Source: Chromatiales bacterium
GTDB taxonomy: Bacteria > Pseudomonadota > Gammaproteobacteria > CAMYNG01
Length of the DNA: 50,874 bases
Reading direction: 5' to 3'
NCBI GenBank assembly: GCA_027005735.1
Contig: JALTLF010000157.1
Span: 1 to 50,874, forward strand
Shown: positions 847-32,779 of the stretch, piece by piece
Numbering within the stretch: the stretch's first letter is position 1
How the letters are laid out: the number at the start of each line of letters is the position of its first letter
Notes under the pieces: model-generated
What the model saw: only the letters and a program-made list of their open reading frames with translations
Database searches by the model: none
What the model was told of the DNA's origin: nothing
Position numbers and translations under genes: made by a program

Positions 847-1353
847 CTACAGGACTTTCTCAATGGCGGCTTCCATGACCGCGTTGTCGGTGGGACCGGG
901 GAAGACCGCGCTGACCACGCCGGTCCTGTCGACAATGAATGTCCAGGGCTCGCCGGTGACGCCCCATTCGACCCAGATGGCATTGTCCATGTAGCCATCC
1001 ACGTGCACGAAGGCGAAGCGGTCCTGATATTTTTCCTTCAACGTGGCGATGCGTACCAGCTGATCGACGCACATGGTGCAATGCTGCGGCGTGCCGAATA
1101 CCACCATGAAGGGCCTGCCGTTCTGTACCAGATTGGCGATGCGCTCGGTGTGCAGACGGTCCGGGGTGTTCATGGTGCAGACATCGCGCCATGCCTCGGG
1201 CGTCGCGGGAAGACGGTTCTCGCTCGCCGGCACCCGATCACCTACCGCCACGCGCGGGCGGAAGCCCTCGTTGCAGCCGACGAACAGCAGGACAATGGTC
1301 AGCAGCCCGGCAAGGGCCGCTACTCTTTTTACGCGCGCACAAACACCTGTCAT
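847..1353 (-). CDS. Thioredoxin/TlpA-like lipoprotein
   Basis: Lipobox-like LLFVGC; redox motif CTMC in FGTPQHCTMCVDQL; thioredoxin-like GEPWTFIVDRTG. Confidence 0.7.
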   Translation of the reverse strand: MTGVCARVKRVAALAGLLTIVLLFVGCNEGFRPRVAVGDRVPASENRLPATPEAWRDVCTMNTPDRLHTERIANLVQNGRPFMVVFGTPQHCTMCVDQLVRIATLKEKYQDRFAFVHVDGYMDNAIWVEWGVTGEPWTFIVDRTGVVSAVFPGPTDNAVMEAAIEKVL

Positions 1354-1593: not shown

Positions 1594-2022
1594 TCACCTG
1601 CCCAGCGCCGCGGTGGTGGTCTCGTTCTCCTGCCTGCGCAGCGCCCGCAGGTAGGTAACGAGCTGGGCCAGTTCCGCGTCTGAGCCTTCCCAGGGCGGCA
1701 TCCTGAGCCGGTAGCGCCTGGCCGAGACACCGGGGCGTGGTGCGCGCAGATAGGTCTCCAGCCAGTCGGCCGTACGGCGGCTGCCGATGCCATCCAGCGG
1801 CGGGCCGAAGCTGGTGCCGACGCCGAAGATCTCGTGGCAGGAAGGGCAGCCCGAGCGGTGGTAAATCCGCTCCCCCGGCAGGGTCTGTGCCGAGGCGAGA
1901 TAAACGAACTCCACCGGCGGCGGTTTCTGGTAGATGATATAGCCTACCAGGGCCGAAAAGGCGACGATCAGGACCGAGCCGCCGAGGACGATCCATTCAC
2001 CCGCGCGGAGTTTCATTGCCAT
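1594..2022 (-). CDS. Membrane-anchored monoheme cytochrome c
   Basis: N-terminal TM then CPSCH heme motif. The track start (2121) is probably too long; internal MAMKLRAGEW preferred. Confidence 0.75.
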   Translation of the reverse strand: MAMKLRAGEWIVLGGSVLIVAFSALVGYIIYQKPPPVEFVYLASAQTLPGERIYHRSGCPSCHEIFGVGTSFGPPLDGIGSRRTADWLETYLRAPRPGVSARRYRLRMPPWEGSDAELAQLVTYLRALRRQENETTTAALGR

Positions 2023-2191
2023 CGTTACCGTCTTCGTAGCGATCGTCGTCGCCTTCGGTGAATATCTGCCTGGTGATGTTCTCGTCGAACTGGTTGTGGG
2101 TGTAGGCCCAGTAGACACCAATCACGACGAAGATCAGCGTGACCATGCCGGTCGCCGCCCATATATAGGGTATCAGGGATTCGCTGTTCAT
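1997..2191 (-). CDS. Small CcoS-like membrane protein
   Basis: 64 aa; single TM followed by YTHNQFDENITRQIFTEGDDD, similar to the CcoS GQFDDLE...RIL.DDD pattern. Confidence 0.5.
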   Translation of the reverse strand: MNSESLIPYIWAATGMVTLIFVVIGVYWAYTHNQFDENITRQIFTEGDDDRYEDGNDGNETPRG

Positions 2192-2670
2192 CGTTGTCCT
2201 TCCTGTTCCGTTTCGTTGTCGGGTCTTGCGCGGCCGTCGCCCTGTGGGGGCACCGGGTAGTTCGAGGATCCCGGATTCGAACGCAGGCTATGCATGAAGG
2301 CAGTCAGAAGTCTCCTGTCTTCAGCATCGAGGCGTCGGAAGTCCGGGCCCAGGCTGCCGTCATGGGCAGTACCATCGACGAGTTGCGTCGGATCGGTAAA
2401 ATAGTCCGCAAGCCACTGCTTGCTGCGTCGCGTGCCCTCGCCGTCGAGCACCGGTGCTACGCCGATCTCGCCCATGCGCAGCACACGGTGGCAACTGTTG
2501 CATCCCCTGCTCTTGTACAGGCGATAGCCTTCCTGGGCCGTCGCCGTCCACAGGGTATAGTCCCTCGGCGGTTTCGGTGTGCCACCACCCGAGGGGCCGG
2601 CGATGCGGTACAGGGCTGCCGCCGTGAGCAGGGCGGCGATGCCGAAAAAGATTTTCTCACCTTTGCGCAT
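2188..2670 (-). CDS. Monoheme cytochrome c, membrane anchored
   Basis: N-terminal TM, CNSCH heme motif. Confidence 0.75.
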   Translation of the reverse strand: MRKGEKIFFGIAALLTAAALYRIAGPSGGGTPKPPRDYTLWTATAQEGYRLYKSRGCNSCHRVLRMGEIGVAPVLDGEGTRRSKQWLADYFTDPTQLVDGTAHDGSLGPDFRRLDAEDRRLLTAFMHSLRSNPGSSNYPVPPQGDGRARPDNETEQEGQR

Positions 2671-3075: not shown

Positions 3076-3420
3076 CTAGTCGCTGCGCTTGCCGGCCTTC
3101 TTCTTGACGTTGATGGTCCACACCACGGCGGCAATACCACCGAGGATAATGATGATCTGCACGGTGATCATCATGTATCCCCAGTCCCACCAGGGCTGGG
3201 CATGGGTAGTGCTGACGAAGGTCGTGGTGACCCGCTCGTAGCGTTGACCAAAACCCCACGGGAAGGTCCACAGGAAGGCCTCGAAGACCGTCACGCAGAC
3301 GATGACTACCAGCCACCAGGGGATCTTGCCATTACCCTCCTTGATGCCGTCGTACTCCTCGTCGGAAAAGCGGCCAAAGACGGTGCCGCAGTCTTCCCTT
3401 GCTTTTTCTTCATCGTTCAT
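3076..3420 (-). CDS. CcoP/FixP N-terminal-like membrane anchor lacking heme motifs
   Basis: DEEYDGIKEGNGKIPWWLVVIV resembles the FixP_N motif (DGI.E.dN.lP.WW); no CXXCH. Confidence 0.55.
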   Translation of the reverse strand: MNDEEKAREDCGTVFGRFSDEEYDGIKEGNGKIPWWLVVIVCVTVFEAFLWTFPWGFGQRYERVTTTFVSTTHAQPWWDWGYMMITVQIIIILGGIAAVVWTINVKKKAGKRSD

Positions 3421-3442: not shown

Positions 3443-3964
3443 CTATTTCAGGCTTTCAAGGAAGGCCACCAGCGCGTCCATGTCCTCATCGCTGAGGTAC
3501 TCGAAGGCCGGCATGATGGAGCCCGGTGTCACCGCGCGTGGATTGCGGTGATGGACGTAGTGCCAGGCCTTGACGCGATTGCGGCTGCCGATGTGCAGCA
3601 GATCAGGCGCCTTGCGGTCGGAACCGAACAGGCTGGGGGACTCGCCCTGCACGTCGCCGGCCTCGGGGGGATCACCGAAGTAGGTCCAGTCCTGCGTCTG
3701 CTCCGGCAGCAGGGTGTGGCACCACCAGCATCCCTCGCGGATGAAGACGGTCTTGCCGCGGCTGGCCGGCGTGGGGGCGTCTGCGCCCGTCATGAAGGGA
3801 TCGTGGATGTTCCAGCCGGTATGCGCCCAGATCTCCTCATGGTGCTTGCCCAGCTCCGACTGGGGGATGGTCGCCATGTAGGTGGAACCGCCGACAATCG
3901 TGACGAAGATGGAACTGAATATCACCAGCACCACCAGAATTGCACCAACAACATATTTAGGCAT
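3443..3964 (-). CDS. ccoO: CcoO-like monoheme cytochrome c subunit of cbb3-type oxidase
   Basis: GKTVFIREGCWWCHTL...GPDLxxxG-like APDLLHIGSR...NPRAVTPGSIMPAFEYL matches the CcoO core. Confidence 0.75.
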   Translation of the reverse strand: MPKYVVGAILVVLVIFSSIFVTIVGGSTYMATIPQSELGKHHEEIWAHTGWNIHDPFMTGADAPTPASRGKTVFIREGCWWCHTLLPEQTQDWTYFGDPPEAGDVQGESPSLFGSDRKAPDLLHIGSRNRVKAWHYVHHRNPRAVTPGSIMPAFEYLSDEDMDALVAFLESLK

Positions 3965-3989: not shown

Positions 3990-5393
3990 TCAGGCCGTTG
4001 CCGGTGCTGCCTGCATGGCAGGGGCATCGTCTTCAACGCGTTCACCCTTGCGTGCGGTCATCACCATGTTGTAGAGGAAAATCGGTTGCGCGAAGATGAT
4101 CAACAGACCAAACACCGCGCGGCCCACCATGTACGGGTGGGTGGCAATTACCGATTCGATGTAAGGGACCTCGTAGACCTTGGCCGCACCCTGTACCAGG
4201 CCGCCGCCGGTCAGCGAGATCCAGAAGCCCAGGAAGCCGATGGCCGTCATCCAGAAATGGATGCGTGCCAGTTTCATGCTGTAGAGTCTCCGCTTCAGGA
4301 GCTTGGGCAGGCCATAGTAGATGGCGCCAATCTCGATGAAGGTGGAGAAACCCAGCAGGGCCAGGTGGGCATGGGCCACGATCCAGTGGGTGCCGTGGAT
4401 GTACCAGTTCAGCGTACGTGTCTGCTGGAAGGCGCCCTGGATGTTGAGCGGGATGGCGAAGAGTACGCCGGTCAGCGCCCATTGCAGGGAGATGTTTTTG
4501 GTAAACATCCACCACTTGTCCTTCATGGTCATGAGCATGTTCACCACGAAGGCCAGCGCCGGGATCATGATCAATACGCCACTCACCGAGGCGAAGGACT
4601 TGAGCCATTCCGGGATCGGTGCGCCCATGAGGTGATGGGCGCCAGGCGTGGAATAGAACGCCGCAATGGACCAGAAGTGCAGGTGTCCAATCTTGTGGCT
4701 GTAGAGCGTATTGCCCGAGATCTTCGGAATGATGTAGTAGGCAATGGCCGCCGACACCGGTGTTATCCACAGGCCGAGCACATTGTGTGCGTGCCACCAT
4801 GTCATATAGGCCTCACTGAGTCCGGTGACCGGAAAGAAGTCGGGAATGGCACCGATGAAGTAAGTGAGGATAATGAACAGGGCCGAGGCGCCAAAGAACC
4901 ACAGGGTGACGTACAGTCCCTCGGTGCGGCGGTTGAGCATGGTCATCCACACATTGACCGCCAGCGGCAGGAGGATGAACAACAGTACATAGACATCCAC
5001 CGGCCAGATCAGGTCCTGGTATTCACGGCCCGTGGTCAGGCCATTGATGAGGGTGAAGAACACCACCACCATACCGACGTTCCAGGCCCAGCAGTTCCAC
5101 ACCCCAAGCCGCTCGCTCCACAGCTTGGTCTTGCACAAGGCGGGTGTGATGTAACACATCGCGCCGGCAAAGGCCATGAAGATCCAGCCGAAGATAACGA
5201 AGTGGACATGCACCGGTCGCACACGACCAAAGTGCAGCCACGGAATATCATTGGGCAGGATATCCGGCCAGGCCAGTCGGAAAGAGGTGATAATGGCAAG
5301 CAGCGTGCCAATCACCAGCATTACAATTGCCGAGAAGAAGAAATGCTTTGCGGCAGTTCCCTCGGCGTAGTCGTCTTTAGTCCAGAAACCCAT
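3990..5393 (-). CDS. ccoN: cbb3-type cytochrome c oxidase subunit I
   Basis: 467 aa, multi-TM; WWHAHNVLG, HFWSIAAFYSTPGAHHLMG, HWIVAHAHLALLG ligand-bearing helices. Confidence 0.85.
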   Translation of the reverse strand: MGFWTKDDYAEGTAAKHFFFSAIVMLVIGTLLAIITSFRLAWPDILPNDIPWLHFGRVRPVHVHFVIFGWIFMAFAGAMCYITPALCKTKLWSERLGVWNCWAWNVGMVVVFFTLINGLTTGREYQDLIWPVDVYVLLFILLPLAVNVWMTMLNRRTEGLYVTLWFFGASALFIILTYFIGAIPDFFPVTGLSEAYMTWWHAHNVLGLWITPVSAAIAYYIIPKISGNTLYSHKIGHLHFWSIAAFYSTPGAHHLMGAPIPEWLKSFASVSGVLIMIPALAFVVNMLMTMKDKWWMFTKNISLQWALTGVLFAIPLNIQGAFQQTRTLNWYIHGTHWIVAHAHLALLGFSTFIEIGAIYYGLPKLLKRRLYSMKLARIHFWMTAIGFLGFWISLTGGGLVQGAAKVYEVPYIESVIATHPYMVGRAVFGLLIIFAQPIFLYNMVMTARKGERVEDDAPAMQAAPATA

Positions 5394-5423: not shown

Positions 5424-5642
5424 TTACTTCCCCTGCTTGACCATGACAGCGTTGAGGAACCAGAAACTGATTGCTGACGCAACCCCCGTACCCAGGGATA
5501 TGATCAGCCCCCAATTGAGCAGGTCGGTCCAGTCGCCGTAGGCGCGCATCCCGATAACCGGGAGTATGCAAAGCTGGAATACGGTGCCCAGCCCAACGCC
5601 GACAAGAAAGCCGCTATACAAAAAGTTAATCATGCGGTGCAT
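5424..5642 (-). CDS. Hypothetical two-TM small protein
   Basis: 72 aa hydrophobic ORF between the two oxidase-like genes. Confidence 0.55.
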   Translation of the reverse strand: MHRMINFLYSGFLVGVGLGTVFQLCILPVIGMRAYGDWTDLLNWGLIISLGTGVASAISFWFLNAVMVKQGK

Positions 5643-5647
5643 GCTTG

Positions 5648-6214
5648 TTACCTCCGCTTTTTATAAACAGTCAAAAAGACATTGGTGATGTAAGTCCAGT
5701 AACCCAGTCCCATGAGCATCGCACCAGTAATGATCAGGATGTGATGCATGGCGCCCACGGCCTCCAGTGCCTGGGCATAGGTCATGCCGTTGTGGATCAT
5801 ATTGCCTTCGATCAGACCAAGGATGACCAGAGAGGTATAGAAAGTGATGACGCCGAGTGCGGAGAACCAGAACGATACCGTTGCCAGTGTCATGCTGTAG
5901 ATCGGCCGATGCACGAGCTTCGGCAGCACGTAGTAGAACAGCCCCATCATGCCCATGGTGACGCCTCCCACAAGGTTGATGTGGGCGTGCGCCAGGGGGT
6001 CGATGAGGTGCCCCGCCGGACCTGACTCACGGATCCATTGCGCAATGCCCGGGAAGGTCTGGGTGACCCCCTGGATGGTGCCAATCAACAGGTTCAGGAC
6101 CGAAATCAGGAAAAAACGCAGGATGCGTACTTCGGTTTCCGACTGCTCTTCCCGAGTCTTCGGCGTGTTGCTGTTGTCGGCAGGACGCGACAGTTCCGCC
6201 ACGGTACTACTCAT
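5648..6214 (-). CDS. Truncated heme-copper oxidase subunit I-like protein (C-terminal helices only)
   Basis: IGTIQGVTQ...DPLAHAHINLVGG...YYVLPKLVHRPIYSMTLATVSFWFSALG aligns by eye with the C-terminal part of the adjacent CcoN (LNIQGAFQQ...VAHAHLALLG...YYGLPKLLKRRLYSMKLARIHFWMTAIG). Confidence 0.7.
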   Translation of the reverse strand: MSSTVAELSRPADNSNTPKTREEQSETEVRILRFFLISVLNLLIGTIQGVTQTFPGIAQWIRESGPAGHLIDPLAHAHINLVGGVTMGMMGLFYYVLPKLVHRPIYSMTLATVSFWFSALGVITFYTSLVILGLIEGNMIHNGMTYAQALEAVGAMHHILIITGAMLMGLGYWTYITNVFLTVYKKRR

Positions 6215-6672
6215 TGTGCATTCTCCTCGTTGCCAGGCAGGGTACGCAGATAGGCAATCACGTCCCAGCGCTGGCCTTCACTCAGTTGTCTCTTCCATCC
6301 AATCATCGGCGTGCCCAGCAGGCCGTCACTGATGATGCTGAACAGCTGTGCATCGCTGCGTGACTGGACGCGGGCACTGCGCAGATCGGCCGGTTTGGGC
6401 GTGACCCGATAGGCCCACTCACCCATGCCGTCACCACGTACCCCATGACAGGGCAGGCAGATCTGTGCGAAATACACGCGACCCAGCTCCACCGCCTGGG
6501 GGTTCTGCCGCCGCAGGTGACGGCTGTCCACCGGGGTGGCCGCATAGGCGCCCACGCCGGGGGGCGGGATGACGTGGTTGTCATCCGGCAGAAAGTACGT
6601 GGTCGCACTTGCCGTACCGAGGGCGGCGGCAATGCCGAGAACAACATAGATGGGTGCAGACATGCGACTCAT
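6211..6672 (-). CDS. Monoheme cytochrome c
   Basis: CLPCHGVRGDGMG; N-terminal hydrophobic anchor; MIGW ligand region. Confidence 0.8.
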   Translation of the reverse strand: MSRMSAPIYVVLGIAAALGTASATTYFLPDDNHVIPPPGVGAYAATPVDSRHLRRQNPQAVELGRVYFAQICLPCHGVRGDGMGEWAYRVTPKPADLRSARVQSRSDAQLFSIISDGLLGTPMIGWKRQLSEGQRWDVIAYLRTLPGNEENAQ

Positions 6673-6682
6673 GCGTCCACTC

Positions 6683-7624
6683 TCAGCTTTCGCCCCCGGC
6701 GGTATCCGCCTGGGCCTGGAGCATCTCGCGCGCCTTGTTCATGTCCCAGTCCGTGCGCAGCGACATCACGTACCATACCAACTGCCAGCGCTGCTCTTCG
6801 TCAAGGAAGTCAGCGAAGGACGGCATCGGGGTGCCATCGAAGCCGGTGGTAAAGGTGCGGTAGATGCCGCGCGGGTCACTGGCGCCGACGAACTGGCTGG
6901 CATCGGTGAAGTCACGCGGGACGATGGGCAGGCCATTGTCGTCCTCGAGTTCTGGCGCGGAAGGCCCGTCGCCCTTGCCCTTGGGACCATGACACTTGGC
7001 GCACTTCATCTGCTTGTAGACTTCCTTGCCGGCGAGGATCATTTCCTCCGTGGGCATGGGTGGCTGACCAATCTCCACGGGTTCCTCCTGGTAGTCCGCT
7101 TCTTCCACCCAGCGCTCGGACAGCGACTTGATGTAGGCGATCACCGCCCAGCGGTCGCGCTCCGGCAGGAACTTGAACGAGGGCATGTCATGATCCGCCA
7201 CCAGTCCACGGGAGATGGCCTCGAAGAGATCGAGATCCGTCGGCAAGGAGCCACTGGGCGTCGAGCGGATCTTGAATACCGCCTCGGTGAAGTCACGCGG
7301 TTTGCGCGGCAGACGGTGATCTTCATTGCGGATGTATTGTTCACCAAGTTCCCACACCGCGCCGTTGCCGTCACCCTTGGGGCCATGACAGCCGATGCAC
7401 AGGCCGCGATAGGTCCACTCGCCATACTTGAGCAGGCCGGGTGTGACCGGCGGGCTTTCACCGACCGGGTGAATGTTTCCCGTTGCCGAGGAATATTCGA
7501 AGAACATGGTGTAGAAGGGCTTTTCCTCCGGGGCCGGGTTGGTCTTTGCCGAAACAGCCAGGCTGAGTACGGCGATCAGGCCGGCTCCCACCAGCAAGCC
7601 AAGTATCCAGTTTCGCGTTTTCAA
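6683..7624 (-). CDS. Diheme cytochrome c
   Basis: Two heme motifs, CIGCHGPKGDGNG and CAKCHGPKGKGDG; TTG start. Confidence 0.8.
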   Translation of the reverse strand: MKTRNWILGLLVGAGLIAVLSLAVSAKTNPAPEEKPFYTMFFEYSSATGNIHPVGESPPVTPGLLKYGEWTYRGLCIGCHGPKGDGNGAVWELGEQYIRNEDHRLPRKPRDFTEAVFKIRSTPSGSLPTDLDLFEAISRGLVADHDMPSFKFLPERDRWAVIAYIKSLSERWVEEADYQEEPVEIGQPPMPTEEMILAGKEVYKQMKCAKCHGPKGKGDGPSAPELEDDNGLPIVPRDFTDASQFVGASDPRGIYRTFTTGFDGTPMPSFADFLDEEQRWQLVWYVMSLRTDWDMNKAREMLQAQADTAGGES

Positions 7625-7714: not shown

Positions 7715-8437
7715 TCACTGACTGAAGGTATGGTCGAGGGTGGTGGTGCCTCCCGCAGTTACCGTGACTTCCTTGACGACCTCACCAAGCTTCTCGTGCC
7801 AGATCTTCACCTTGTAGGTGCCGGGCGGAATCCCGTCGATGGTAAACGTGCCGTCGGCCGCGGTGACCGTGGCATAGGGATTCTTCGACACATACACGTA
7901 ACCCAGCATCCACTCATGGGCATCACACTGCACGGTGACGATGCCGGGCTTGCGCATGCGCTTCTTGATGACCCGATCCTTCAGCGGCAGGGCAATGTTG
8001 TACATGGTCTTCTTCTTGGGGCCATGGTACAGGTGGGTGTTGTGCAGGATCGGGTCGGTGTTGTTGACACCGAGGCGCTGGCCAACCACCGCCGTGGTGA
8101 CGTGCGGGCTGAACATACACTTCTTGTTGTCGAAGGGGATGATGGCCTTCTTGTCATAGGGTTTGCCGGCATCGATATTCTCGATGGACACCACGACATT
8201 CTGTAGCTTGCCGTTGTTGACCACGTAATAGTCGGCGGAGATGGTGGCTCCGCAGTAGTCAACGTCCTTGGTCATCTTCAGTGTCGGGTTGGCGGGTGGC
8301 GTGCCATTGAAGCTGATGACGCCGGTGATCTTGCCGCCATTGCTGACATCGATGACCTTGTAGGCCAGGGCCTGGGTGCTCCACAGGCCAAGGATCAGGG
8401 ATGTCGCCAGGGCGATGTGCATGATGTGTTTCTTCAC
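7715..8437 (-). CDS. Cupredoxin-like periplasmic protein with carboxypeptidase-regulatory-like C-terminus
   Basis: Signal peptide; LHNTH...VQCDAHEWMLGY (C-x2-H-x2-M) type-1 Cu-like ligands; TFTIDGIPPGTYKVKIWHE; GTG start. Confidence 0.75.
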   Translation of the reverse strand: MKKHIMHIALATSLILGLWSTQALAYKVIDVSNGGKITGVISFNGTPPANPTLKMTKDVDYCGATISADYYVVNNGKLQNVVVSIENIDAGKPYDKKAIIPFDNKKCMFSPHVTTAVVGQRLGVNNTDPILHNTHLYHGPKKKTMYNIALPLKDRVIKKRMRKPGIVTVQCDAHEWMLGYVYVSKNPYATVTAADGTFTIDGIPPGTYKVKIWHEKLGEVVKEVTVTAGGTTTLDHTFSQ

Positions 8438-8482: not shown

Positions 8483-9328
8483 CTATTCAGCTGCAAGGGA
8501 GTTGATGTAGTTGATCAGGTCCCAGACTTCCTGTTCGCTGCCTTCGAAGAAGTCGGAGTAGGATGGCATGGCGCCACCGTCCAGGCCCGCCATGATGGTG
8601 CGGTACAGGTCCGCCGGGGCGTTGCCGTTCTTGAAGGAGCTGGGACGGCGCAGGTCGCGGGGCGGCAGGCGGAAACCCCAGTCATCCTTCAGGGTACCGG
8701 CCTTCTTGCCGTTGCCGGCGCCACCACCACCATGGCATTCCCAGCACTTGAACTTCTGGTACACCTGGTAGCCGCGCTGGACGCTGGCCGCGGTAGGCGG
8801 GATGGGGGTGCCCACCACCTTGATGAGTTCCGGCTCGGCGTCCTTGAAGTCGGGACTCAGGCTCTTGATGTAGTACACCAGGCGCCAGCGGTCTTCCGTG
8901 CTATAGCCGCGGAAGCCCGGCATGAAACCCGGGATACCACGAGTGATGGTACGGAAGAGATCCTCATCCGTGGGCATTTCGCCACTCAGGGTGGAGCGGA
9001 ACTTGTAGATCCCCGAGGTGAAGTCACGTGGATGCGGGGCCGTGTCGCGGCTGAGGAAATACGCTACCGGTCCCTTGCCTTCGCCATTGACGCCATGGCA
9101 CCAGATGCAGGAGCGCTCGTAGAGCGCCCGCCCGGCCTCGACGTTGGCCGCATTCTCCGGGATACGCTGCTTGAAAGGTGACAGCTCGATGGGCAGGGGG
9201 ATGGCATCCGCGCCCATGCCGCCCTCGGCCGCCAGTGCCGTCGTGATTACCGTCCCGCTCATGCCCGTGGCGAGGATGAAGGTGAGGGCGGTGCGGGAGA
9301 TCCTCTGTACGTGTTTTCTGATTTTCAT
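8483..9328 (-). CDS. Diheme cytochrome c
   Basis: CIWCHGVNGEGKG and CWECHGGGGAGNG; parallel domain layout to 6683..7624. Confidence 0.8.
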   Translation of the reverse strand: MKIRKHVQRISRTALTFILATGMSGTVITTALAAEGGMGADAIPLPIELSPFKQRIPENAANVEAGRALYERSCIWCHGVNGEGKGPVAYFLSRDTAPHPRDFTSGIYKFRSTLSGEMPTDEDLFRTITRGIPGFMPGFRGYSTEDRWRLVYYIKSLSPDFKDAEPELIKVVGTPIPPTAASVQRGYQVYQKFKCWECHGGGGAGNGKKAGTLKDDWGFRLPPRDLRRPSSFKNGNAPADLYRTIMAGLDGGAMPSYSDFFEGSEQEVWDLINYINSLAAE

Positions 9329-9343: not shown

Positions 9344-10855
9344 TCAGAACGCCATGTCCACGCCGACGGTGATCATGGACTTGAGATTGCGTGCGGGATG
9401 CTCGACACCACCGAAGACATTGGTTGGCAGCTTCACTGAGCTCTCCAGGTTCTGGTGATAGCGCGCATACAGGCCGATGCTGGGCCGCGGGTAATACTTG
9501 GCAATCACCGCGATGAAAGAGGCGTCCTGGTTGATGGCCGGGTCGCTCCCTTGTAAGGCGGGGGGTAACAAGGACAAGCCACCGGCGTCCATGCTGTCGT
9601 AGCGCACGCCAATCAGCCATTTTGCGTTGAGCAGGTAGTCGGCCTCGATACTGATGCCCATGGCATCGGTGTCCCAAGTGGAGAGAGAAGCAGGTGCCAT
9701 GGCAAATACCGGTTGGTCTATCTCGTCCCAGATGATGGTGCCGTAGATGTCCCACCACTTGCTGGTCCAGCGCGCGGCGATACCGTAGCGCTGCCAGTCA
9801 ACAGCGTCGGTGGCATAGATCAGGGTGCCAGCTGGATTGAGCGTTGGCATGGCGGCCTTGTCGGCGTTGTAGATGAAGCCGGAGATGGAGAAGTCGCTGT
9901 ACTCGCCCAGCCAGTCGTAACGCAACATCAGATACCTGTCGAAAGTGGTGCGGCTCTCGTTCTCGGCGGTCTGGGCCTGCACGATCCCCACCTGGTAGAG
10001 GAAGTTGGTACCGAAGGGCCGGCCGTGGACCGAGATACCATTGGACACCGGGGCGTTGTAGAACAGGGGCTCGAAGGGCAGGATGGCGAAGCCTTCCGAG
10101 AGCAGGTCCGGATCGGTCGGTGCCGCCGAGTCCGCGAGGCGCTGGCCCCGCGAAAGGCCAAACATCTTGGCGGAGAAGGCCAGCGGCAGCAGCGGGATGC
10201 GATCTATCGGTGGCGGGAAGGCAGCGGTCTCCGCCTTGGGCCCGACGGGGTTGATCTGCTGGCGATGGGTGGGGAAGGAGTACATCGCCGCGGGATCGAA
10301 GCGGCCTACCTTGATGTTGGCCACCTGGTGCCCGCCCAGGTTGTCGAACACCAGGAAGGCGCGCTCGAAGGCCACGGCCCCTTCGCCCTGGGAGGCATAT
10401 TCCGCCTCGAAGAAGAAGCTGAGATCGTCGCTGGCGGTGCCGGCAAAGAAGATATTGACGATGTTGGGCAGGATGATTTCGATATCATCACTGGCCTCGG
10501 TGATGGTGGCATCGCGGAACGAGGCCTGCTGGATATCGGCGCGCAGGCGCACGGCCATGTAGTTGCTGATGGCGTCCAGCGTGGCGCCGCCCAGTTCTCC
10601 GCCGAGCAGGCGCTTTCTGCTGACACTTCCGTCGGAGGTCCCCGGGATCTGGTAGCCGTTTTCCTGGAAACGTTGGCCGAAGGGATTCAGTCGCGGCGGC
10701 CGGGTATGGCAGACGTTGCAACTGACATTGAACTTGCGCGCAAAGGCCGGCACGGCACCCGCCTCGGGGATGACGCTGGTCCACGCGATGATCATGGTAA
10801 ACAGGGCCAGCAATGCCGTGGGGCAATACCGGCGGGTCAGTCTTGTTATTCTCAT
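9344..10855 (-). CDS. Porin-cytochrome fusion, Cyc2-like outer-membrane protein
   Basis: Signal peptide then AVPAFARKFNVSCNVCHTRPPRLNPFGQRFQENGYQ, followed by ~450 aa beta-barrel-like sequence ending in aromatic F (VDMAF). Start set at 10855 (MRITRLTRR) with AAGGAGGG upstream. Confidence 0.65.
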   Translation of the reverse strand: MRITRLTRRYCPTALLALFTMIIAWTSVIPEAGAVPAFARKFNVSCNVCHTRPPRLNPFGQRFQENGYQIPGTSDGSVSRKRLLGGELGGATLDAISNYMAVRLRADIQQASFRDATITEASDDIEIILPNIVNIFFAGTASDDLSFFFEAEYASQGEGAVAFERAFLVFDNLGGHQVANIKVGRFDPAAMYSFPTHRQQINPVGPKAETAAFPPPIDRIPLLPLAFSAKMFGLSRGQRLADSAAPTDPDLLSEGFAILPFEPLFYNAPVSNGISVHGRPFGTNFLYQVGIVQAQTAENESRTTFDRYLMLRYDWLGEYSDFSISGFIYNADKAAMPTLNPAGTLIYATDAVDWQRYGIAARWTSKWWDIYGTIIWDEIDQPVFAMAPASLSTWDTDAMGISIEADYLLNAKWLIGVRYDSMDAGGLSLLPPALQGSDPAINQDASFIAVIAKYYPRPSIGLYARYHQNLESSVKLPTNVFGGVEHPARNLKSMITVGVDMAF

Positions 10856-11027: not shown

Positions 11028-11525
11028 TCAGGCGGAAGGACTCAGGGGGGGAGGGTTTTCGACAGGGAGAACGATGGGAGAAACGGACATGCCGGAAGTG
11101 AGCGGAACCGGGCCTGCTCCAACCGTCAGGTCCGTGTCGATGGCAGTAAGGGCCGGATGCAACACGTCCTGGTCGCAATGACAGGAACAATCGCCACTGC
11201 AGCTGCAGGCACTCGTGTCATGGCCGCTACCATGGTCGGCTGCATGACCGTTCCCATGAGCGGCGGCAACATGGGTAGCGGTGGCATCCTGGGCTCCGCC
11301 CATGTGGTCGTCCTGGGTGGCCCCGGCATGGGCGCAGGCCGCATCGGCCTCCGCCTGGCGGCGACCGGCCTGGGCCGGTATCTGCGTATGCTGCGGGCTC
11401 CTGTGTGCCGGGGGAGTGCCGTGGCCATGACGCGCGGACAGGGCCTGCATGGGTGCAAACAGGATTGCAACCACGACGACTCCTGAGATCACGCGATAAG
11501 AACCCGGCACTCGCATGCGCGGCAA
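11028..11525 (-). CDS. His/Cys-rich secreted hypothetical protein
   Basis: Signal-like N-terminus; HGNGHAADHGSGHDTSACSCSGDCSCHCDQDVLHP. Confidence 0.55.
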   Translation of the reverse strand: MPRMRVPGSYRVISGVVVVAILFAPMQALSARHGHGTPPAHRSPQHTQIPAQAGRRQAEADAACAHAGATQDDHMGGAQDATATHVAAAHGNGHAADHGSGHDTSACSCSGDCSCHCDQDVLHPALTAIDTDLTVGAGPVPLTSGMSVSPIVLPVENPPPLSPSA

Positions 11526-12063: not shown

Positions 12064-12354
12064 TCAGTTACTCATCTGCATGAAGGTAATGATGTCGCGC
12101 GTTTCCTGTCCGGTGAGGCCGGCACGCACGCGCATGTGGAAACTCGTCGTGATCCACTGGTCGTCGCGCAGCTCTGGCGCCTCGCGCAGGTTGTGACAGC
12201 GCGTGCAGTTGTCCGCCCAGGCGCGGGCGCCGCGGGCGGGATCACCCTTTGGCGGGTAGCTGCCGGTTTCCTCCGCCTGGACTGTCGGAATGCCAGAGCC
12301 AAGCAGCAGCGCCAGTCCCATGCTGTAAAAGAAGTGTCGTGTCTTCGTTTTCAT
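12064..12354 (-). CDS. Small monoheme cytochrome c
   Basis: Signal peptide, CTRCHNLREAPELRDDQW. Confidence 0.75.
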   Translation of the reverse strand: MKTKTRHFFYSMGLALLLGSGIPTVQAEETGSYPPKGDPARGARAWADNCTRCHNLREAPELRDDQWITTSFHMRVRAGLTGQETRDIITFMQMSN

Positions 12355-12368
12355 TAGTAAATCCTCCG

Positions 12369-13532
12369 TTAGAAGCCGTAGGCCAGTTGCACGAGGGTGC
12401 GGTCATCGTTCTGGAACCCGGCATTGGGATTGTCGTTACGCTCGATGGCGATCTTGCCGATGAGGTTGCTGGCGAACAGGTAGTTGAGGCCCACCAGGGT
12501 CTGCTCGTTGTCGGTGGCGTCATCCGGGGTGTCGTATTCGCCAAGGCGCAACACCACTTCCCACTTGCCGTCGCCGAAGCGATAGGCGCCCTGCACGTAC
12601 CAGGCCTCCCAGGCACCGCCGTTTACGGCGTAGGCGCTCCCCGGCAGGTCGCCGACCTCCTGCTTGGCATACTCGCCGCGCAGGTCGAAGGGCGCCGGCC
12701 GCCAGGTGAAGTCGAAGCCGGTGTACTCGTAGTCACGGCCGGTTTCGTAGAACACCGGTGTCATGGCGGTATCCCGCACCGAGGCCTGGCCGGTGGCGTA
12801 GGAGAGGCCAATCTCCAGTTTCTGTGCCGGGAACAGCAGGCCGAAACGACCACCGCTCACCTTGTTGCCGTCGTCGTCGGCACCGATTCCCGGCGTTTCG
12901 ATCATTTCGATCTCGCCACCGGCGGCCTCCAGCGCCGGGCCGTTGCCGATATACACGGCATAGTTGGCCTTGATGCCGTCGCTGCCCACCGGGAAGCCGC
13001 CGCGGACCTGCAGGCCCACCTCGGCATTGGGCGCCGCTTCGTCATGGCCGAAACCGGCCGGCGCCGAGGGCGCGCGGTTGATCCAGGAGGGATGCAGGTT
13101 CTGGCGGAACTGGCCCAGCGGGCTCAGGAACTTGCCCATTACCAGCACCGCGCTGTCGCTGAGAAAGAGATCCACGGTGAGGTATTCCAGCTCGAACTCG
13201 TTTTCGCCCAGCTCGTTGGTGGTGATCTCGAATTCCGATTCCACCATCACCAGGTCGCGGTACTGGTAGTGGAAGATGGGCGAGATGGAGCCGCTGGCGA
13301 AGGATCCCGGGCCATTGTCGGGGTCGACGTAGTCCACGTCCGCGTACCCGGCCATGTGGATGAGGCTGTTTGGGCGCTTCCACTCGGCCGCCGACTCCAC
13401 CTGTTGCTTGAGGGTTTCGATGTCGGCACGCAGGGTGGCGATATCGTCCTGGGCCGCCAGGGCGGCGGTGCCGGTGAGGGTAAAGGCCCCGGCCACGGCG
13501 GAAGACAGAATATGTCGCTGTAGTGTTTTCAT
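12369..13532 (-). CDS. Outer-membrane porin (coiled-coil N-terminus)
   Basis: Signal peptide, DDIATLRADIETLKQQVES coiled coil, barrel-like repeats, C-terminal aromatic F. Confidence 0.7.
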   Translation of the reverse strand: MKTLQRHILSSAVAGAFTLTGTAALAAQDDIATLRADIETLKQQVESAAEWKRPNSLIHMAGYADVDYVDPDNGPGSFASGSISPIFHYQYRDLVMVESEFEITTNELGENEFELEYLTVDLFLSDSAVLVMGKFLSPLGQFRQNLHPSWINRAPSAPAGFGHDEAAPNAEVGLQVRGGFPVGSDGIKANYAVYIGNGPALEAAGGEIEMIETPGIGADDDGNKVSGGRFGLLFPAQKLEIGLSYATGQASVRDTAMTPVFYETGRDYEYTGFDFTWRPAPFDLRGEYAKQEVGDLPGSAYAVNGGAWEAWYVQGAYRFGDGKWEVVLRLGEYDTPDDATDNEQTLVGLNYLFASNLIGKIAIERNDNPNAGFQNDDRTLVQLAYGF

Positions 13533-15750: not shown

Positions 15751-15882
15751 GCGGCCAGCGACGGGGCGCGGGCGCACGGTGGCGTGCGCCCGGCGTCTCC
15801 CCCCGCCCCGCAGAGCTGGTCCTTCGCCGGGCCGACATGTCCCGGCTTGCAGGCAGGGATGCCTTGGGTCTATAGTCAGCGC

Positions 15883-16320
15883 ATGCTTGCTATCCTGCGC
15901 AAAGCCCGCGTCGTGCGCCTGTCCCTGCTCGCCAGCCTGCTGGCCCTGCTGGGGCTGGCACTTCAGCCCTGCTGTGAGGCACTGGAAGACATGGCGGGCA
16001 CGCCGGGAGGCGAGGTGGCGCATGCCCACCACGGCGTCGGTACCACCGCGGCATCTCAGATCGGCAGCCATGGGCACGAGGGCGACCCCAGTGACGAGGG
16101 ACCCTGTTGCGATGCGCTTGGTGACGCACTGGTCCTTGCCAAGTTCGTTTCCGCGACAGGTGCGGTTGATGCCGGCAAGCCTGTTCTGGTTCCCCTTTCC
16201 GCGTTCGGCCAGCCGGAGGCGTTGCCCGGAACCCATCCCCCGCGGGTCGTCGCCACCCTCTCGGCGCGATACCGATCCTCCCCACCACTCTACCTGTTCA
16301 CCCAGCGGTTTCTGATTTGA
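15883..16320 (+). CDS. Cys/His-containing secreted hypothetical protein
   Basis: MLAILRKARVVRLSLLASLLALLGLALQPCCEAL...HAHHGVG...DEGPCCDALGDA; internal start preferred over track start. Confidence 0.45.
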   Translation: MLAILRKARVVRLSLLASLLALLGLALQPCCEALEDMAGTPGGEVAHAHHGVGTTAASQIGSHGHEGDPSDEGPCCDALGDALVLAKFVSATGAVDAGKPVLVPLSAFGQPEALPGTHPPRVVATLSARYRSSPPLYLFTQRFLI

Positions 16321-19295: not shown

Positions 19296-22001
19296 ATGAA
19301 CAACAACGAGACCAGTATGAAAGATCCAGTTTGCGGTATGGATGTCACGCCGGAGAAGGCGGCGGCAAAGTCTGAATACGAGGGGCAGACGTACTATTTC
19401 TGCTCCACGCACTGCCATGACAAGTTCGTCGCCGCGCCGGGGGAGTACACCGGCGCCGCGAAGGCCACCGATCCGGTGTGCGGCATGGAGGTGGACCCGG
19501 CGAGCCCTGCGGCCACGGCCGAGCACGAGGGGCAGACGTATTACTTCTGTTCTACGCACTGCCATGACAAGTTCGTCGCCGCGCCGGGGGAGTACACCGG
19601 CGCCGCGAAGGCCACCGATCCGGTGTGCGGCATGGAAGTGGACCCGGAACATCCTGTGGCCACGGCCGAGCACGAGGGGCAGACGTATTACTTCTGCTCC
19701 ACGCACTGCCATGACAAGTTTGTCGCCGATCCCCGGGCCGTACTCGAAGGCGGCAACAAGGCCGAGGCGGTGGAGGCCTCGGAATATTTCTGTCCCATGT
19801 GCCCCGAGGTGCATGCCACCGAGCCCGGCGCCTGCCCCAGTTGCGGCATGGCCCTGGAGCCGAAGATGGTGCCACTCAGCAATACGAAGACCGAGTACGT
19901 CTGCCCCATGCACCCGGAAGTGGTGCAGGACCACCCCGGTTCCTGCCCCAAGTGCGGCATGGCGCTGGAGCCGCGCACCGTGGAGCTGGAAGAGGATACC
20001 AGCGAACTGGACGACATGACGCGGCGTTTCTGGGTCAGCACGATCCTGGCCATCCCGGTATTCTTCAGTGCCATGGCCGCTGAATTCTGGCCCGAGGCCA
20101 TAGCCGGGATCATCGAACCCCATATTCGCCAGTGGATCGAGCTCATCCTGGCGACGCCGGTGGTCTGGTGGGGTGGCTGGATCTTCTTCGTGCGTGGCTG
20201 GCGCTCCATCGTCACCTGGAATCTCAACATGTTTACCCTCATCGCCATCGGCGTGGGTATTGCCTGGACCTACAGCCTGGTTGCGGTATTGGCACCCGGC
20301 ATATTTCCCCCCAAGGTATTCAATGAAATGGGCGTGGTCCCGGTGTACTTCGAGGCCGCCGCCGTGATCACAGCCCTGGTGCTGCTGGGGCAGGTGCTGG
20401 AGCTGCGTGCCCGCAGCCAGACCAATGCGGCCATCAAGATGCTGCTGGGCCTGGCCCCCCGAACCGCGCGCATCGTGCGTGAAGACGGCACCGAGGAGGA
20501 TATCCCGCTCGAGCAGGTCAAGGTGGGCGACATCCTGCGCGTGCGCCCGGGCGAGAAGATCCCGGTGGACGGCACGGTGCAGGACGGGGAGAGCAATGTG
20601 GATGAGTCCATGGTCACCGGCGAGCCGATTCCAGTGGAAAAGGCCGCGGGTGATCGGCTCATCGGCGCCACGGTCAACGGGACCGGTAGCCTGTTGATGC
20701 GTGCCGAGCGCGTGGGTGCCGATACCCTGCTTTCTCAGATCGTGCAAATGGTGGCCGAGGCACAGCGTTCGCGCGCCCCCATCCAGAAGCTGGTGGACGT
20801 GGTTTCCAGCTATTTTGTGCCGGCGGTGGTCATCATTGCCATCATTACTTTCTTCGTGTGGTGGAAGTGGGGGCCCGAACCGGCTCTGGCCTATGCCGTC
20901 ATCAATGCCGTCGCTGTGCTGATCATCGCCTGTCCCTGTGCCCTGGGTCTGGCCACACCCATGTCCATCATGGTAGGCACGGGTCGCGGCGCCATGATGG
21001 GTGTGCTAATCAAGAATGCCGAAGCCCTGGAAGTGATGCGCAAGGTGGATACGCTGGTGGTGGACAAAACCGGCACCCTGACGGAAGGCAAGCCCAGGCT
21101 GGTTTCCGTGGTTGCCGTCGATGGCTTCGAGGAGCATGAAATCCTCAGACTCGGCGCCAGCCTGGAGCGTGCATCGGAACACCCGCTGGCGGAGGCCATC
21201 GTGCGTGGCGCCGAGGAACGGGACATCGAGCTTTCGGCCACCGATGATTTCCAGTCGGTCACCGGAAAGGGTGTGACCGGCAAGGTCGATGGACACGAAA
21301 TTGCCCTGGGCAACATCCGGCTCCTGGAAAGCCTTGACATCGAGCCCGGCGAACTGCCACAGCTTGCCGAGACGGGGCGCGCCGAAGGCCAGACGGTGAT
21401 GCTGGTCGCCATCGACGGCAAGGCTGCCGGCCTCATCGGGGTGGCCGATCCCATCAAGGAATCGACGCCGGAGGCCATCGCCGATCTGCACAAGGAAGGG
21501 ATCAGCGTCGTGATGCTCACCGGCGACAGTCGCACCACGGCGGAGGCCGTGGCGCGCAAGCTGTGGATCGACCAGGTGGAGGCGGAAGTCCTGCCCGACC
21601 AGAAGGCCGAGATCGTCAAGAAACTTCAGGCGAGGGGCTGCATCGTCGCTATGGCCGGTGACGGTATCAACGATGCGCCGGCACTGGCACAGGCCCATGT
21701 GGGCATTGCCATGGGCACAGGCACGGATGTCGCCATGGAGAGTGCGGGGATCACCCTGGTAAAAGGCGACCTGCGTGGTATCGTGCGTGCCCGGCGCCTC
21801 AGTCGCGCTACAATGCGCAACATCCGCCAGAATCTGTTTTTCGCCTTTGTCTATAACTCGGCGGGTGTGCCGGTGGCTGCCGGTGTCCTGTACCCGTTCT
21901 TTGGAATATTGCTGTCCCCGATCATCGCCGCCGCAGCCATGAGTTTCAGTTCGGTGTCGGTCATAAGCAATGCGCTACGACTGCGCAAGGTGAAACTCTA
22001 G
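19296..22001 (+). CDS. copA: Copper-type P1B ATPase with three N-terminal YHS domains and two CPMxPE heavy-metal-binding domains
   Basis: DPVCGM...[12 protein letters not shown] x3; [11 protein letters not shown] and [43 protein letters not shown]. Confidence 0.9.
19318..19758 (+). repeat. Three tandem 147-bp units encoding YHS domains
   Basis: GATCCGGTGTGCGGCATGGA recurs with a period of exactly 147 bp (49 codons); units 2 and 3 nearly identical. Confidence 0.85.
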
Positions 22002-22028
22002 AAACCCCAGGCATAGCGAGGTGTCATC

Positions 22029-22337
22029 ATGAAGTTCAGGAAAGTAACCGCCATCTTCCCGGAGCTGGACCTGAAAAAGGTCGAGGAAGCACTTATCGAT
22101 ATCGGCGTGCCGGGAATGACCGTGACCCGGGCGCATGGCTTTGGCGAATATCGGAATTTCTTTGCCGAGGATTGCATGAGCGACTGCGTGCGGGTGGAAA
22201 TCTTCACCGAGGCTGAAAAGGCACCGGAGATCGCCGACACCATCGCGCGAACGGTGCACGAGGGCATGACCAGCGATGGCATGATTGCCATTCTGCCGGT
22301 GGAAGAGTTCATGCATATTCGCCAGTACGGCCAGTAA
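22029..22337 (+). CDS. PII-like protein (metal-associated PII family candidate)
   Basis: 102 aa, MKFRKVTAIFPELDLKKVEEALIDIGVPGMTVTRAHGFG resembles the PII fold; directly downstream of the P1B ATPase. Confidence 0.6.
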   Translation: MKFRKVTAIFPELDLKKVEEALIDIGVPGMTVTRAHGFGEYRNFFAEDCMSDCVRVEIFTEAEKAPEIADTIARTVHEGMTSDGMIAILPVEEFMHIRQYGQ

Positions 22338-22384
22338 TTCCCGGGCAGTTCCCCCGCGGCCCGGGGCTGGATGCGGAGGTAATG

Positions 22385-22756
22385 ATGGCTGCAGACGCAA
22401 CAGGTCCGGATGATGCCTTCGTGGTGCGCAGAAAGGTCCGCCTGCGGGACCTGTCCAGCCGCGAACACGTCGAAGCGGTCAAGCGTGCTCTGCGTGCGCT
22501 GGAAGGCATGCGGGAGGTGCGGGTCGACTCGGGCCGTCAGTGCGCGCTCGTTTGCTATGACGCTTCCCGCCTGAGTTTCGGGCAGATCGAGCAGGCTCTG
22601 GTGGAGTCAGGCTGTCCACCCGCGCCAGGATTCCGGGCGCGTCTCAGGGCCGCCCTCTACCGCTACATGGACGAGAATGCCCATGAGAACGCGGGGCGCA
22701 GGCCAGCACCCTGTTGCAGTAATCCCGGCGAGATATACGCGCGCAAGCACAGGTGA
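22385..22756 (+). CDS. HMA-like hypothetical protein without an obvious CXXC
   Basis: VRRKVRLRDLSSREHVEAVKRALRALEGMREVRVDSGRQCALVCYDASRLSFGQIEQALVESGC follows the HMA layout. Confidence 0.45.
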   Translation: MAADATGPDDAFVVRRKVRLRDLSSREHVEAVKRALRALEGMREVRVDSGRQCALVCYDASRLSFGQIEQALVESGCPPAPGFRARLRAALYRYMDENAHENAGRRPAPCCSNPGEIYARKHR

Positions 22757-22811
22757 CCCGGCACGTACCGTCACGGGTCGTGGCATGGGCGAGACATCAG
22801 GAGGGAGTGAA

Positions 22812-23033
22812 ATGATGAACGGTAGCGGCATGTTCTTTGGTGGTGGATTCATGTGGCTGATCTGGATCCTCGTCATCGCCGGCATCGTGCTGGCCGTTGT
22901 ATTCCTGGTACGAGGAGGAGAAGGGGCATCCGGATCGAGCGAATCTGCGCTGGATATACTCAAGAAGCGCTATGCGCGCGGTGAAATCGACGAACAGGAA
23001 TACGAACGGCGACGCAGGGAACTGGAAGACTGA
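22812..23033 (+). CDS. SHOCT-domain small membrane protein
   Basis: Single TM then ALDILKKRYARGEIDEQEYERRRRELED. Confidence 0.75.
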   Translation: MMNGSGMFFGGGFMWLIWILVIAGIVLAVVFLVRGGEGASGSSESALDILKKRYARGEIDEQEYERRRRELED

Positions 23034-23044
23034 GGGAATACCGG

Positions 23045-23779
23045 GTGGCTGTGGCGGCTGAACTCAGGCTGCGGTGGCCGAACGCTGTTTCCGGCAGGAC
23101 GGGGAGAGGGCACGTGGATCCTGAATATGCATACGGCATGTGGGTAGTGGCCGGGTTTAATCTTGGCCTGTTCCTGTTCTTTACCCTGAGTTTTCTCAAG
23201 CCGCAGGGACGGGCGGAGTGGCGCAACATGAGCGTCGTCATCGCCTTCCTGGTCGCCCTGTTCAGCGAGATGTACGGTTTTCCGCTTACCATCTACCTGC
23301 TCACCGGCTGGTTGGGGGAGGCCTATCCGGTCCTGCAACCTTTTTCGCACAAGTATGGGCATCTCTGGGTGGTGGTCTTCGGCGGCTCGACGCTTGCCTG
23401 GGCCCTGGTCATGGCGCTCAGCCTGGCGCTGCTACTGATCGGTTATACGCTGCTGGCGCGGGGCTGGCGCCAGATCCACGGTGCCCGTGGGAGACTGGTC
23501 ACCGACGGGATCTATGCCTTCGCGCGCCACCCCCAATACACGGGATTGTTCCTGATGATCGCCGCATTTCTCATTCAGTGGCCAACCCTGCTGACAGTAC
23601 TCATGGCGCCGATACTGGTGTTTGCATATATTCGCCTGGCGCGCCGGGAAGAACGGCGGGCGTACGAGGAATTTGGCAACGCCTACGCCGACTATGCGCG
23701 CCGTACGCCAATGTTCTTCCCGCCCCTGCGGTGTTGGAAGGCATTTCTGTCCACGAAGGGAAATACGGCTCCAACATGA
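23045..23779 (+). CDS. Isoprenylcysteine carboxyl methyltransferase-family membrane protein
   Basis: GRLVTDGIYAFARHPQYTGLFL...ARREERRAYEEFGNAYADYARRTPMFFP; start codon uncertain. Confidence 0.7.
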   Translation: MAVAAELRLRWPNAVSGRTGRGHVDPEYAYGMWVVAGFNLGLFLFFTLSFLKPQGRAEWRNMSVVIAFLVALFSEMYGFPLTIYLLTGWLGEAYPVLQPFSHKYGHLWVVVFGGSTLAWALVMALSLALLLIGYTLLARGWRQIHGARGRLVTDGIYAFARHPQYTGLFLMIAAFLIQWPTLLTVLMAPILVFAYIRLARREERRAYEEFGNAYADYARRTPMFFPPLRCWKAFLSTKGNTAPT

Positions 23780-24119: not shown

Positions 24120-25304
24120 TTGAAAAAGAGAATCACCATCGTCGGCAACGGCTTCGCTTCGCTGTTTCTGATCCAGTACCTCCTGCCCTTGCCGGTTTGG
24201 CCATATCCACTGGGTATGGTGCGGCGGCTGTGGTCAAAGTATGACATCACCCTGATCGGTAACGGTGAATTCGTCTATTTTCCCGCCATTCCGGAGTTCA
24301 TTGTCGGCAAGAAGAACCGTGCCGGGGTGTGCGTGGACATCCGGCCATACCTGCGTCGGCGCAATATCCGCTTCATCGATGATTTTGTTGTCGATATTCA
24401 GGACGGCGGTCGCCGGGTGGTGACCCGTAATGGCAGCTACGAGAACGATGCCCTGTTTCTTGGCATCGGTCCGGACTTCCTCAAGGACGATATCCCGGGA
24501 ACGCGCGACCATACCCACTCCCCTTGCTACGGACCCGAGGATATGGAGGTCTTCGTGAGCAAGCTCAATGCCATGGAAGGTGGTGTGATCTATCTGGGTT
24601 TCAAGATCAACCGCGCGGATGGTTTCGTCGCCGGGCGGGCGGGGCAGATGTACGAGTGTGCCTGCCTGCTGGACTACGCGCTCAAGGAAAGGGGGGTGCG
24701 GGACAGGTTCGAGATCCATTTCTTCTCGCCCAATATCGAGCCGGGCGAAACGGGTGCCATTACGGATCGGCTGAGTGAGCGAAATATCATTCTCGACTAT
24801 GGTTACGAGCCGGCCGAGTTCGTCGAGGGGGGCATGAAAGACGCGGATGGAAGCTTTCGCAAGGCGGACCTGGTGCTCTATTCACCGGGTATCACGGGCT
24901 CCGAGCTGGTAAGAAATTCCTGCTTGCCGGCGAGCAAGGGTGGCCAGATCGCTACCGATCGTTTCGGGCAGGTTGAGGGGCTGGAGCGGGTTTTTGCCGC
25001 GGGTGATTGTGCGGCCCACGAGAACCCCCCTCCCTGGGTGCCACACCAGGCACACATGGCACAACTGCGCGCTCAGGCGGCGGCGAAGAACATGCGTGCG
25101 GTACTGGCCGGCAGATCTCCACGCGCCACCTATCGCTACGAACTTTCCTGCATTCTTAACATGGAAAATGACGCCATGTGGATGCACATGGCGAGTGATG
25201 ACAGGCCCCCGTTCTGGAACCTGTTTCCCCGGCGCTCGAAGAAGCTGATCACCCTGAAAAACAGTTTCGAGCGCCTGTACCTGTTCTACCTGCGCTACCT
25301 GTAG
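24120..25304 (+). CDS. SQR/NDH-2-like FAD-dependent oxidoreductase
   Basis: ITIVGNGFASLFLIQYL; VFAAGDCAAHENPP; TTG start. Confidence 0.65.
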   Translation: MKKRITIVGNGFASLFLIQYLLPLPVWPYPLGMVRRLWSKYDITLIGNGEFVYFPAIPEFIVGKKNRAGVCVDIRPYLRRRNIRFIDDFVVDIQDGGRRVVTRNGSYENDALFLGIGPDFLKDDIPGTRDHTHSPCYGPEDMEVFVSKLNAMEGGVIYLGFKINRADGFVAGRAGQMYECACLLDYALKERGVRDRFEIHFFSPNIEPGETGAITDRLSERNIILDYGYEPAEFVEGGMKDADGSFRKADLVLYSPGITGSELVRNSCLPASKGGQIATDRFGQVEGLERVFAAGDCAAHENPPPWVPHQAHMAQLRAQAAAKNMRAVLAGRSPRATYRYELSCILNMENDAMWMHMASDDRPPFWNLFPRRSKKLITLKNSFERLYLFYLRYL

Positions 25305-25334
25305 CGATAATCGGCCGAGGAGGAAGCCAGAAAT

Positions 25335-26297: not shown

Positions 26298-26389
26298 GGG
26301 AAATACCAGTTCGCAAGTAAGAAACCTGGCCGCACTGGCCCCAGAATGGGGCTTGCCCGGCCTGTAATCATAATAAGAGGTAGAGGAAA

Positions 26390-32769: not shown

Positions 32770-32779
32770 GGAACATGCC

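Follow-up and report, generated by a model that had tools for sequence, protein, structure and literature searches.

Does the predicted porin-cytochrome at the head of this operon belong to the Cyc2 proteins, and from which donor would it take electrons? We analysed a stretch of 50,874 nucleotides (the window), in which the gene occupies the minus strand with an ATG at 10855, a stop at 9344 and 503 codons. The ATG is preceded by a strong Shine-Dalgarno sequence (AAGGAGG), and the GC content by codon position (0.57/0.46/0.82) matches that of the operon neighbours, which share the high third-position GC. The N-terminus of the deduced protein is hydrophobic and signal-like, as judged by eye. The sole CXXCH lies within the string AVPAFARKFNVSCNVCHTRPPRLNPFGQRF, a region of about 420 amino acids follows the heme segment, and the last residue is a phenylalanine. 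The original prediction of a reading frame with a signal-like N-terminus, a single heme motif and a terminal phenylalanine was thus borne out, with the minus strand as the coding strand.

Cyc2 proteins are defined by the motif AXPXFAR[Q/K][T/Y] just before CXXCH, a PXL four residues after it and a porin of 16 strands (Keffer et al., PMC8406198). The window protein exhibits the PXL at this distance (CHTRPPRL) and, like Cyc2, a single CXXCH after a signal-like N-terminus (signal peptide by eye), and its 503 amino acids compare with a Cyc2 length of at least 365. The upstream motif, AVPAFARKF, agrees at 8 of 9 positions and has F in place of T/Y. The full motif is present in most sampled members of the clade that contains the window protein, e.g. 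at loci L011, L166, L177 and L178; exceptions are L165 (KF), L083 and L084 (KH), L012 and L081 (FSRKY) and L077 (FGRKY). Heme and PXL residues are invariant across this clade, and the heme segment is strongly conserved among relatives from the Nitrospira phylum and the Gammaproteobacteria. Under the strict motif rule the protein is not filed as a Cyc2 member; judged by its sequence it is Cyc2-like, and it probably works like Cyc2. The same genome encodes a second, distant Cyc2-like porin-cytochrome (APMFARQYNLSCAACH; genome G000, contig C48, locus L002, 1510-2783, plus strand), which is 33% identical to the window protein across the first 190 residues.

Searches of Pfam and NCBIfam with the window protein gave no match, and searches of the PDB gave one chance-level match by sequence (E 6.4) and none by profile. 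No relatives were found among the viral contigs and plasmids searched. The named genome collection contained three relatives. The Gammaproteobacteria MAG HyVt-448 has a 93% copy that is truncated where its contig stops, and two Nitrospira MAGs carry full-length homologs with 35-37% tblastn identity. Within the Nitrospira phylum, profile searches of 198 genomes detected whole-length homologs in about 18, the nearest (57%) being that of genome G600, while among 303 gammaproteobacterial genomes homologs were found in G787, G831 and the window's own genome. Two further genomes of the order of G831 carry homologs as well. This patchy distribution suggests horizontal transfer of the porin-cytochrome.

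When the full-length profile was matched to those of five other Cyc2-like groups, probabilities of 98.1-99.7% were obtained, compared with at most 0.4% for reversed barrel profiles of the same groups. Together with the conservation of the heme segment, this indicates that heme motif and architecture did not arise by chance. Comparison of the window clade with hhalign to putative zetaproteobacterial Cluster 1 Cyc2, a reference group of inferred class that stands in for named, characterised Cyc2, gave 98.6% (E 6e-16, 343 columns). The barrel-only profile reached a weak 62% against the same putative Cluster 1, with 0.2% for the reversed control. AlphaFold models calculated from four sequences, for the full-length and the mature form, had pLDDT values of 29 and 33 and were too poor to count strands. 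A scan for amphipathic segments at a loose score of 1.8 found 30 segments versus 23.6 in shuffles, and stricter thresholds were therefore applied. At a threshold of 4.0, 13 segments of nine residues were counted versus 8.2 +/- 2.2 in shuffled columns (P 0.03), and another strict threshold gave 11 versus 5.1 (P 0.006), whereas at 3.5 the excess was lost (P 0.25). The barrel-like strands of the original prediction thus received moderate support that depends on the threshold. The closed barrel of 16 strands with the heme at the pore mouth is a candidate fold.

Trees separated ARQT-type from ARKY-type sequences and grouped the window protein with the ARKY type, where it belongs to a clade of 22-24 rows with a support of 99-100. 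Both types co-occur in one family from another proteobacterial class, just as Zetaproteobacteria have been reported with both Clusters 1 and 3 (PMC7029218). On this basis the ARKY side probably corresponds to Cluster 3 of Keffer and McAllister, an assignment that leans on a genome class which is itself inferred; the function of Cluster 3 is called most uncertain by its own authors. The barrel sequence of the window protein is strongly diverged from Cyc2 Clusters 1-3. Between true Cyc2 and a divergent clade, the alternatives left by the original prediction, the tree favours a well-supported clade of its own on the ARKY side, and the strict Cyc2 motif is off by one residue. The designation as a Cyc2-like porin-cytochrome fusion stands by motif, architecture, profile comparison and tree, with that one residue as the exception. 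We found no experiments on this clade in the open-access literature; an earlier description elsewhere is possible.

The porin-cytochrome gene is the first of an operon whose genes all share its strand and are spaced by -20 to 171 bp as far as the monoheme cytochrome gene at 1594 (Table 1). Shine-Dalgarno sequences precede most operon genes. The thioredoxin/SCO-like gene starts 240 bp after the previous gene, and its operon membership is less sure.

Table 1. Predicted features of the porin-cytochrome operon and the copper ATPase of the window.
Feature	Position	Strand	Remarks
Cyc2-like porin-cytochrome fusion	9344..10855	-	503 aa; residues ~1-34 signal-like; heme segment AVPAFARKFNVSCNVCHTRPPRL at residues 34-56; then putative beta-barrel to F503
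Diheme c-type cytochrome A (2 x CXXCH)	8483..9328	-	Pfam Cytochrome_CBB3/Cytochrom_C; 15 bp gap after porin-cytochrome
Exported cupredoxin-like protein	7715..8437	-	amicyanin-type ligand spacing LHNTH ... C171-x2-H-x2-M; C-terminal CarboxypepD_reg; amicyanin E 0.057
Diheme c-type cytochrome B	6683..7624	-	
Monoheme c-type cytochrome	6211..6672	-	
Short COX1-like protein	5648..6214	-	188 aa; matches C-terminal part of CcoN
Small hydrophobic (putative membrane) protein	5424..5642	-	97% identical in same-genus locus L010
CcoN-like catalytic subunit, divergent cbb3-type (C-family) heme-copper oxidase	3990..5393	-	COX1 283.7 bits; ccoN 249 bits
CcoO/FixO-like monoheme subunit	3443..3964	-	FixO 74.9 bits, cutoff 29.6
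FixP_N-type membrane anchor (heme-less N-terminal part of CcoP)	3076..3420	-	FixP_N 26.2 bits, cutoff 24.9
Monoheme cytochrome c with hydrophobic N-terminal anchor	2188..2670	-	
Monoheme cytochrome c with hydrophobic N-terminal anchor	1594..2016	-	
Thioredoxin/SCO-like exported protein, possible oxidase assembly factor	847..1353	-	Thioredoxin_2 below cutoff
Cu-translocating P-type ATPase, YHS and HMBD domains	19296..22001	+	TIGR01511 599 bits, cutoff 397; 8.4 kb from porin gene; outside operon

Elsewhere in the window, a cupredoxin-like protein at the contig edge (1-423, plus strand, cut) shows 33% similarity to the operon cupredoxin along half of its sequence. A porin-like protein of 387 amino acids with no Pfam match (12369-13532, minus strand) is followed by a small monoheme cytochrome (12064-12354, minus strand). 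Small exported-looking reading frames, several of them rich in His and Cys, are located just upstream of the porin gene or nearby (11028-11525, minus strand; 15784-16320, plus strand), and similar ones occur near homologs (L110, 7976-8374; L113, 7262-7624; L165, 6865-7335). Some of them have alike C-termini (PPLYLFTQRFLI / YRPKLYKLHSSFLI), and none has a Pfam match above cutoff.

The ccoN score of the CcoN-like subunit (249 bits) is below the curated cutoff of 583. Residues H64, H203, H253, H254, H341 and H343, which we take from their motifs to be the heme and CuB ligands, are kept together with Y247, which sits six residues ahead of H253-H254. The kept histidine ligands and the helix-7 tyrosine argue for reduction of oxygen rather than nitric oxide by the CcoN-like subunit, and a nitric oxide reductase as the product of the COX1-like gene was ruled out by this tyrosine and the CuB histidines. 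The CcoO and CcoP subunits of a cbb3-type oxidase are represented by FixO and FixP_N matches above their cutoffs; the hemes of CcoP would be encoded on separate genes (split CcoP). The short COX1-like gene is not specific to the operon: counterparts were found in 35 of 369 gammaproteobacterial genomes, and none of those whose surroundings were read adjoined a close homolog of the window ccoN.

At 20 related loci, a diheme cytochrome gene directly follows that of the porin-cytochrome homolog; one of these loci is that of HyVt-448, and the other 19 belong to the Nitrospira phylum. In most Nitrospira-type loci the diheme cytochrome gene is followed by a cupredoxin gene, and the next genes usually encode sensor-kinase hybrids, not an oxidase. 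The full oxidase operon was seen solely in the window's genus (L010). The novelty lies in finding together a divergent clade of Cyc2-like proteins, a diheme cytochrome that recurs as their partner and, in the window's genus, a complete oxidase operon.

These results lead us to propose, with a probability of roughly 0.55, that electrons from a metal dissolved outside the cell, most likely Fe(II), enter through the window protein, whose gene heads a respiratory operon of its own. The outer-membrane cytochrome-porin would take single electrons from the dissolved reductant. Fe(II) would enter the pore and meet the lone heme at its periplasmic mouth, from where electrons would pass to the co-encoded periplasmic diheme cytochromes and the cupredoxin. 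The anchored monoheme cytochromes would then deliver them to the co-encoded divergent cbb3-type oxidase, so that oxygen is reduced and energy conserved. The proposal draws on the Cyc2-type heme segment, the profile match to putative Cluster 1, the ARKY placement and the tight operon, as well as on oxidase subunits with kept ligands, the diheme partner in 20 loci, the gene order resembling the rus operon and the RuBisCO genes. The sequence itself shows the gene and its fusion, the heme motif, the clade, the operon, the oxidase ligands and the conserved diheme partner; the barrel with its heme position, the direction of electron flow and the donor belong to the proposal. The genome contains two genes of the RuBisCO large-subunit family, which is compatible with lithoautotrophy. 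An electron-entry architecture with a metal donor is likely, and for Fe(II) as the physiological donor we see about an even chance. Arguments against Fe(II) and electron entry are the missed strict motif, the weak similarity of the barrel-only profile, the AlphaFold models without a fold and the location of the nearest gammaproteobacterial relatives outside the genus among copper-resistance genes. The four nearest of these lack the diheme partner in the stretches examined, one of which (G950) is a contig of only 6 kb.

Copper-resistance genes adjoin the homologs of two related groups, which makes Cu(I) a serious competitor of Fe(II). The same conduit might oxidise Cu(I) at the outer membrane, yielding Cu(II), and pass electrons inward, with copper tolerance as the main role in parallel to the multicopper oxidase CopA; on balance we consider this unlikely. 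Copper clusters surround the homologs of the two gammaproteobacterial families closest to the window gene outside its genus: the G787 homolog adjoins CopA and CusRS-type regulators, the G831 homolog stands with CopA, CopB, MerR and an ICMT-like gene, and in G953, a congener of G831, the Cu-ATPase beside the homolog is 77% identical to that of the window. In a sister group from the Nitrospira phylum, a Cu P-type ATPase is located within 5 kb at three of five loci. Copper genes were counted near 6 of 11 related loci versus no more than 1 of 19 control loci with other types of Cyc2-like protein (Fisher P 0.004), a lead rather than proof, because the same data had suggested the hypothesis and the loci, which come from about three lineages and the window, are not independent. 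An ATPase near the G600 homolog (27% identity) was left out of this copper-specific count. In favour of copper, the window has a Cu-ATPase of its own and, further off, a MerR regulator that scored best against CueR, below cutoff, and CopA is encoded elsewhere in the genome. Against it, the window's ATPase is 8.4 kb away from the porin gene and outside the operon, no copper-specific genes were present near the 13 loci of the Nitrospira-type branch, and detoxification would need less than a full oxidase operon. In a wider version of this idea, the clade could be a copper-facing branch of the Cyc2 superfamily that oxidises Cu(I), the electrons feeding a dedicated respiratory operon in the window's genus and thereby joining copper tolerance to energy conservation, which we regard as rather improbable.

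The copper ATPase of the window belongs to an island (19296-23779, plus strand) in which its gene, with three YHS and two HMBD stretches, is accompanied by those for a weakly HMA-like small protein and an ICMT/PEMT-like membrane protein. Another YHS domain is found at the C-terminus of an ABC-transporter ATPase (32741-33619, plus strand) that adjoins FtsX/MacB-type permeases.

If electrons were exchanged instead with Mn(II) or reduced sulfur, with solid minerals or electrodes, or with other cells, the porin-cytochrome would be a general redox entry point. In Ca. Manganitrophus a Cyc2 homolog has been proposed to act on Mn(II) (PMC9040806), and in Ca. Tenderia one has been proposed to take up electrons from electrodes (PMC5371394); sulfur-related genes (rhodanese, Sulf_transp) are located at 25-28 kb in the window. 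A lone heme at the pore mouth is however thought fit for dissolved ions, not solids (PMC8406198), and among the operon genes we recognised none specific to Mn or sulfur; we give such donors little probability. The sulfur-related run (24120-27598, plus strand) comprises a flavin disulfide reductase, possibly SQR-like, a rhodanese and a Sulf_transp transporter. That the heme merely plugs or anchors an ordinary solute porin at the head of an unrelated respiratory operon would agree with a barrel of no assigned substrate and the low pLDDT values, and is very improbable given the linkage to the diheme cytochrome in 20 loci and the invariant heme and PXL residues.

Under the proposed electron-entry function, the operon would be a self-contained candidate pathway from the outer membrane to oxygen. 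Cyc2 is in use as a marker gene for iron oxidation. In this clade a diheme partner recurs, one genus has a complete respiratory operon and other genera have copper-resistance genes nearby, so that the clade offers a concrete case for asking whether iron is the substrate of every Cyc2-like protein.

Among known systems, the CopA/CopB (PcoAB) clusters harbor some gammaproteobacterial homologs of the window protein, which has no recognised sequence relation to CopA or CopB and is a heme protein, not a multicopper oxidase. The Nitrospira loci L011 and L012 share the full-length homolog (35-37% tblastn identity) and the same three-gene order with diheme cytochrome and cupredoxin; sensor histidine-kinase hybrid genes come next, where the window has an oxidase. 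With Cyc2 of Clusters 1-3 (Keffer 2021, McAllister 2020) the window protein has in common the signal-like N-terminus, the single CXXCH with AXPXFAR[QK] upstream and PXL downstream, a putative barrel of about 420 amino acids and full-length profile similarity, seen with putative Cluster 1. It differs by F for T/Y, its own ARKY-side clade, a strongly diverged barrel and an operon that also encodes diheme cytochromes, a cupredoxin and a separate oxidase. The rus operon of Acidithiobacillus ferrooxidans (cyc2-cyc1-cup-coxBACD-rus; PMC10654088) likewise combines an outer-membrane cytochrome-porin, a diheme cytochrome, a copper protein and a terminal oxidase in similar order. In contrast to the aa3 oxidase of rus, the oxidase of the window is cbb3-like with a split CcoP, its copper protein is amicyanin-like with a CarboxypepD_reg domain, and the operon encodes more cytochromes.
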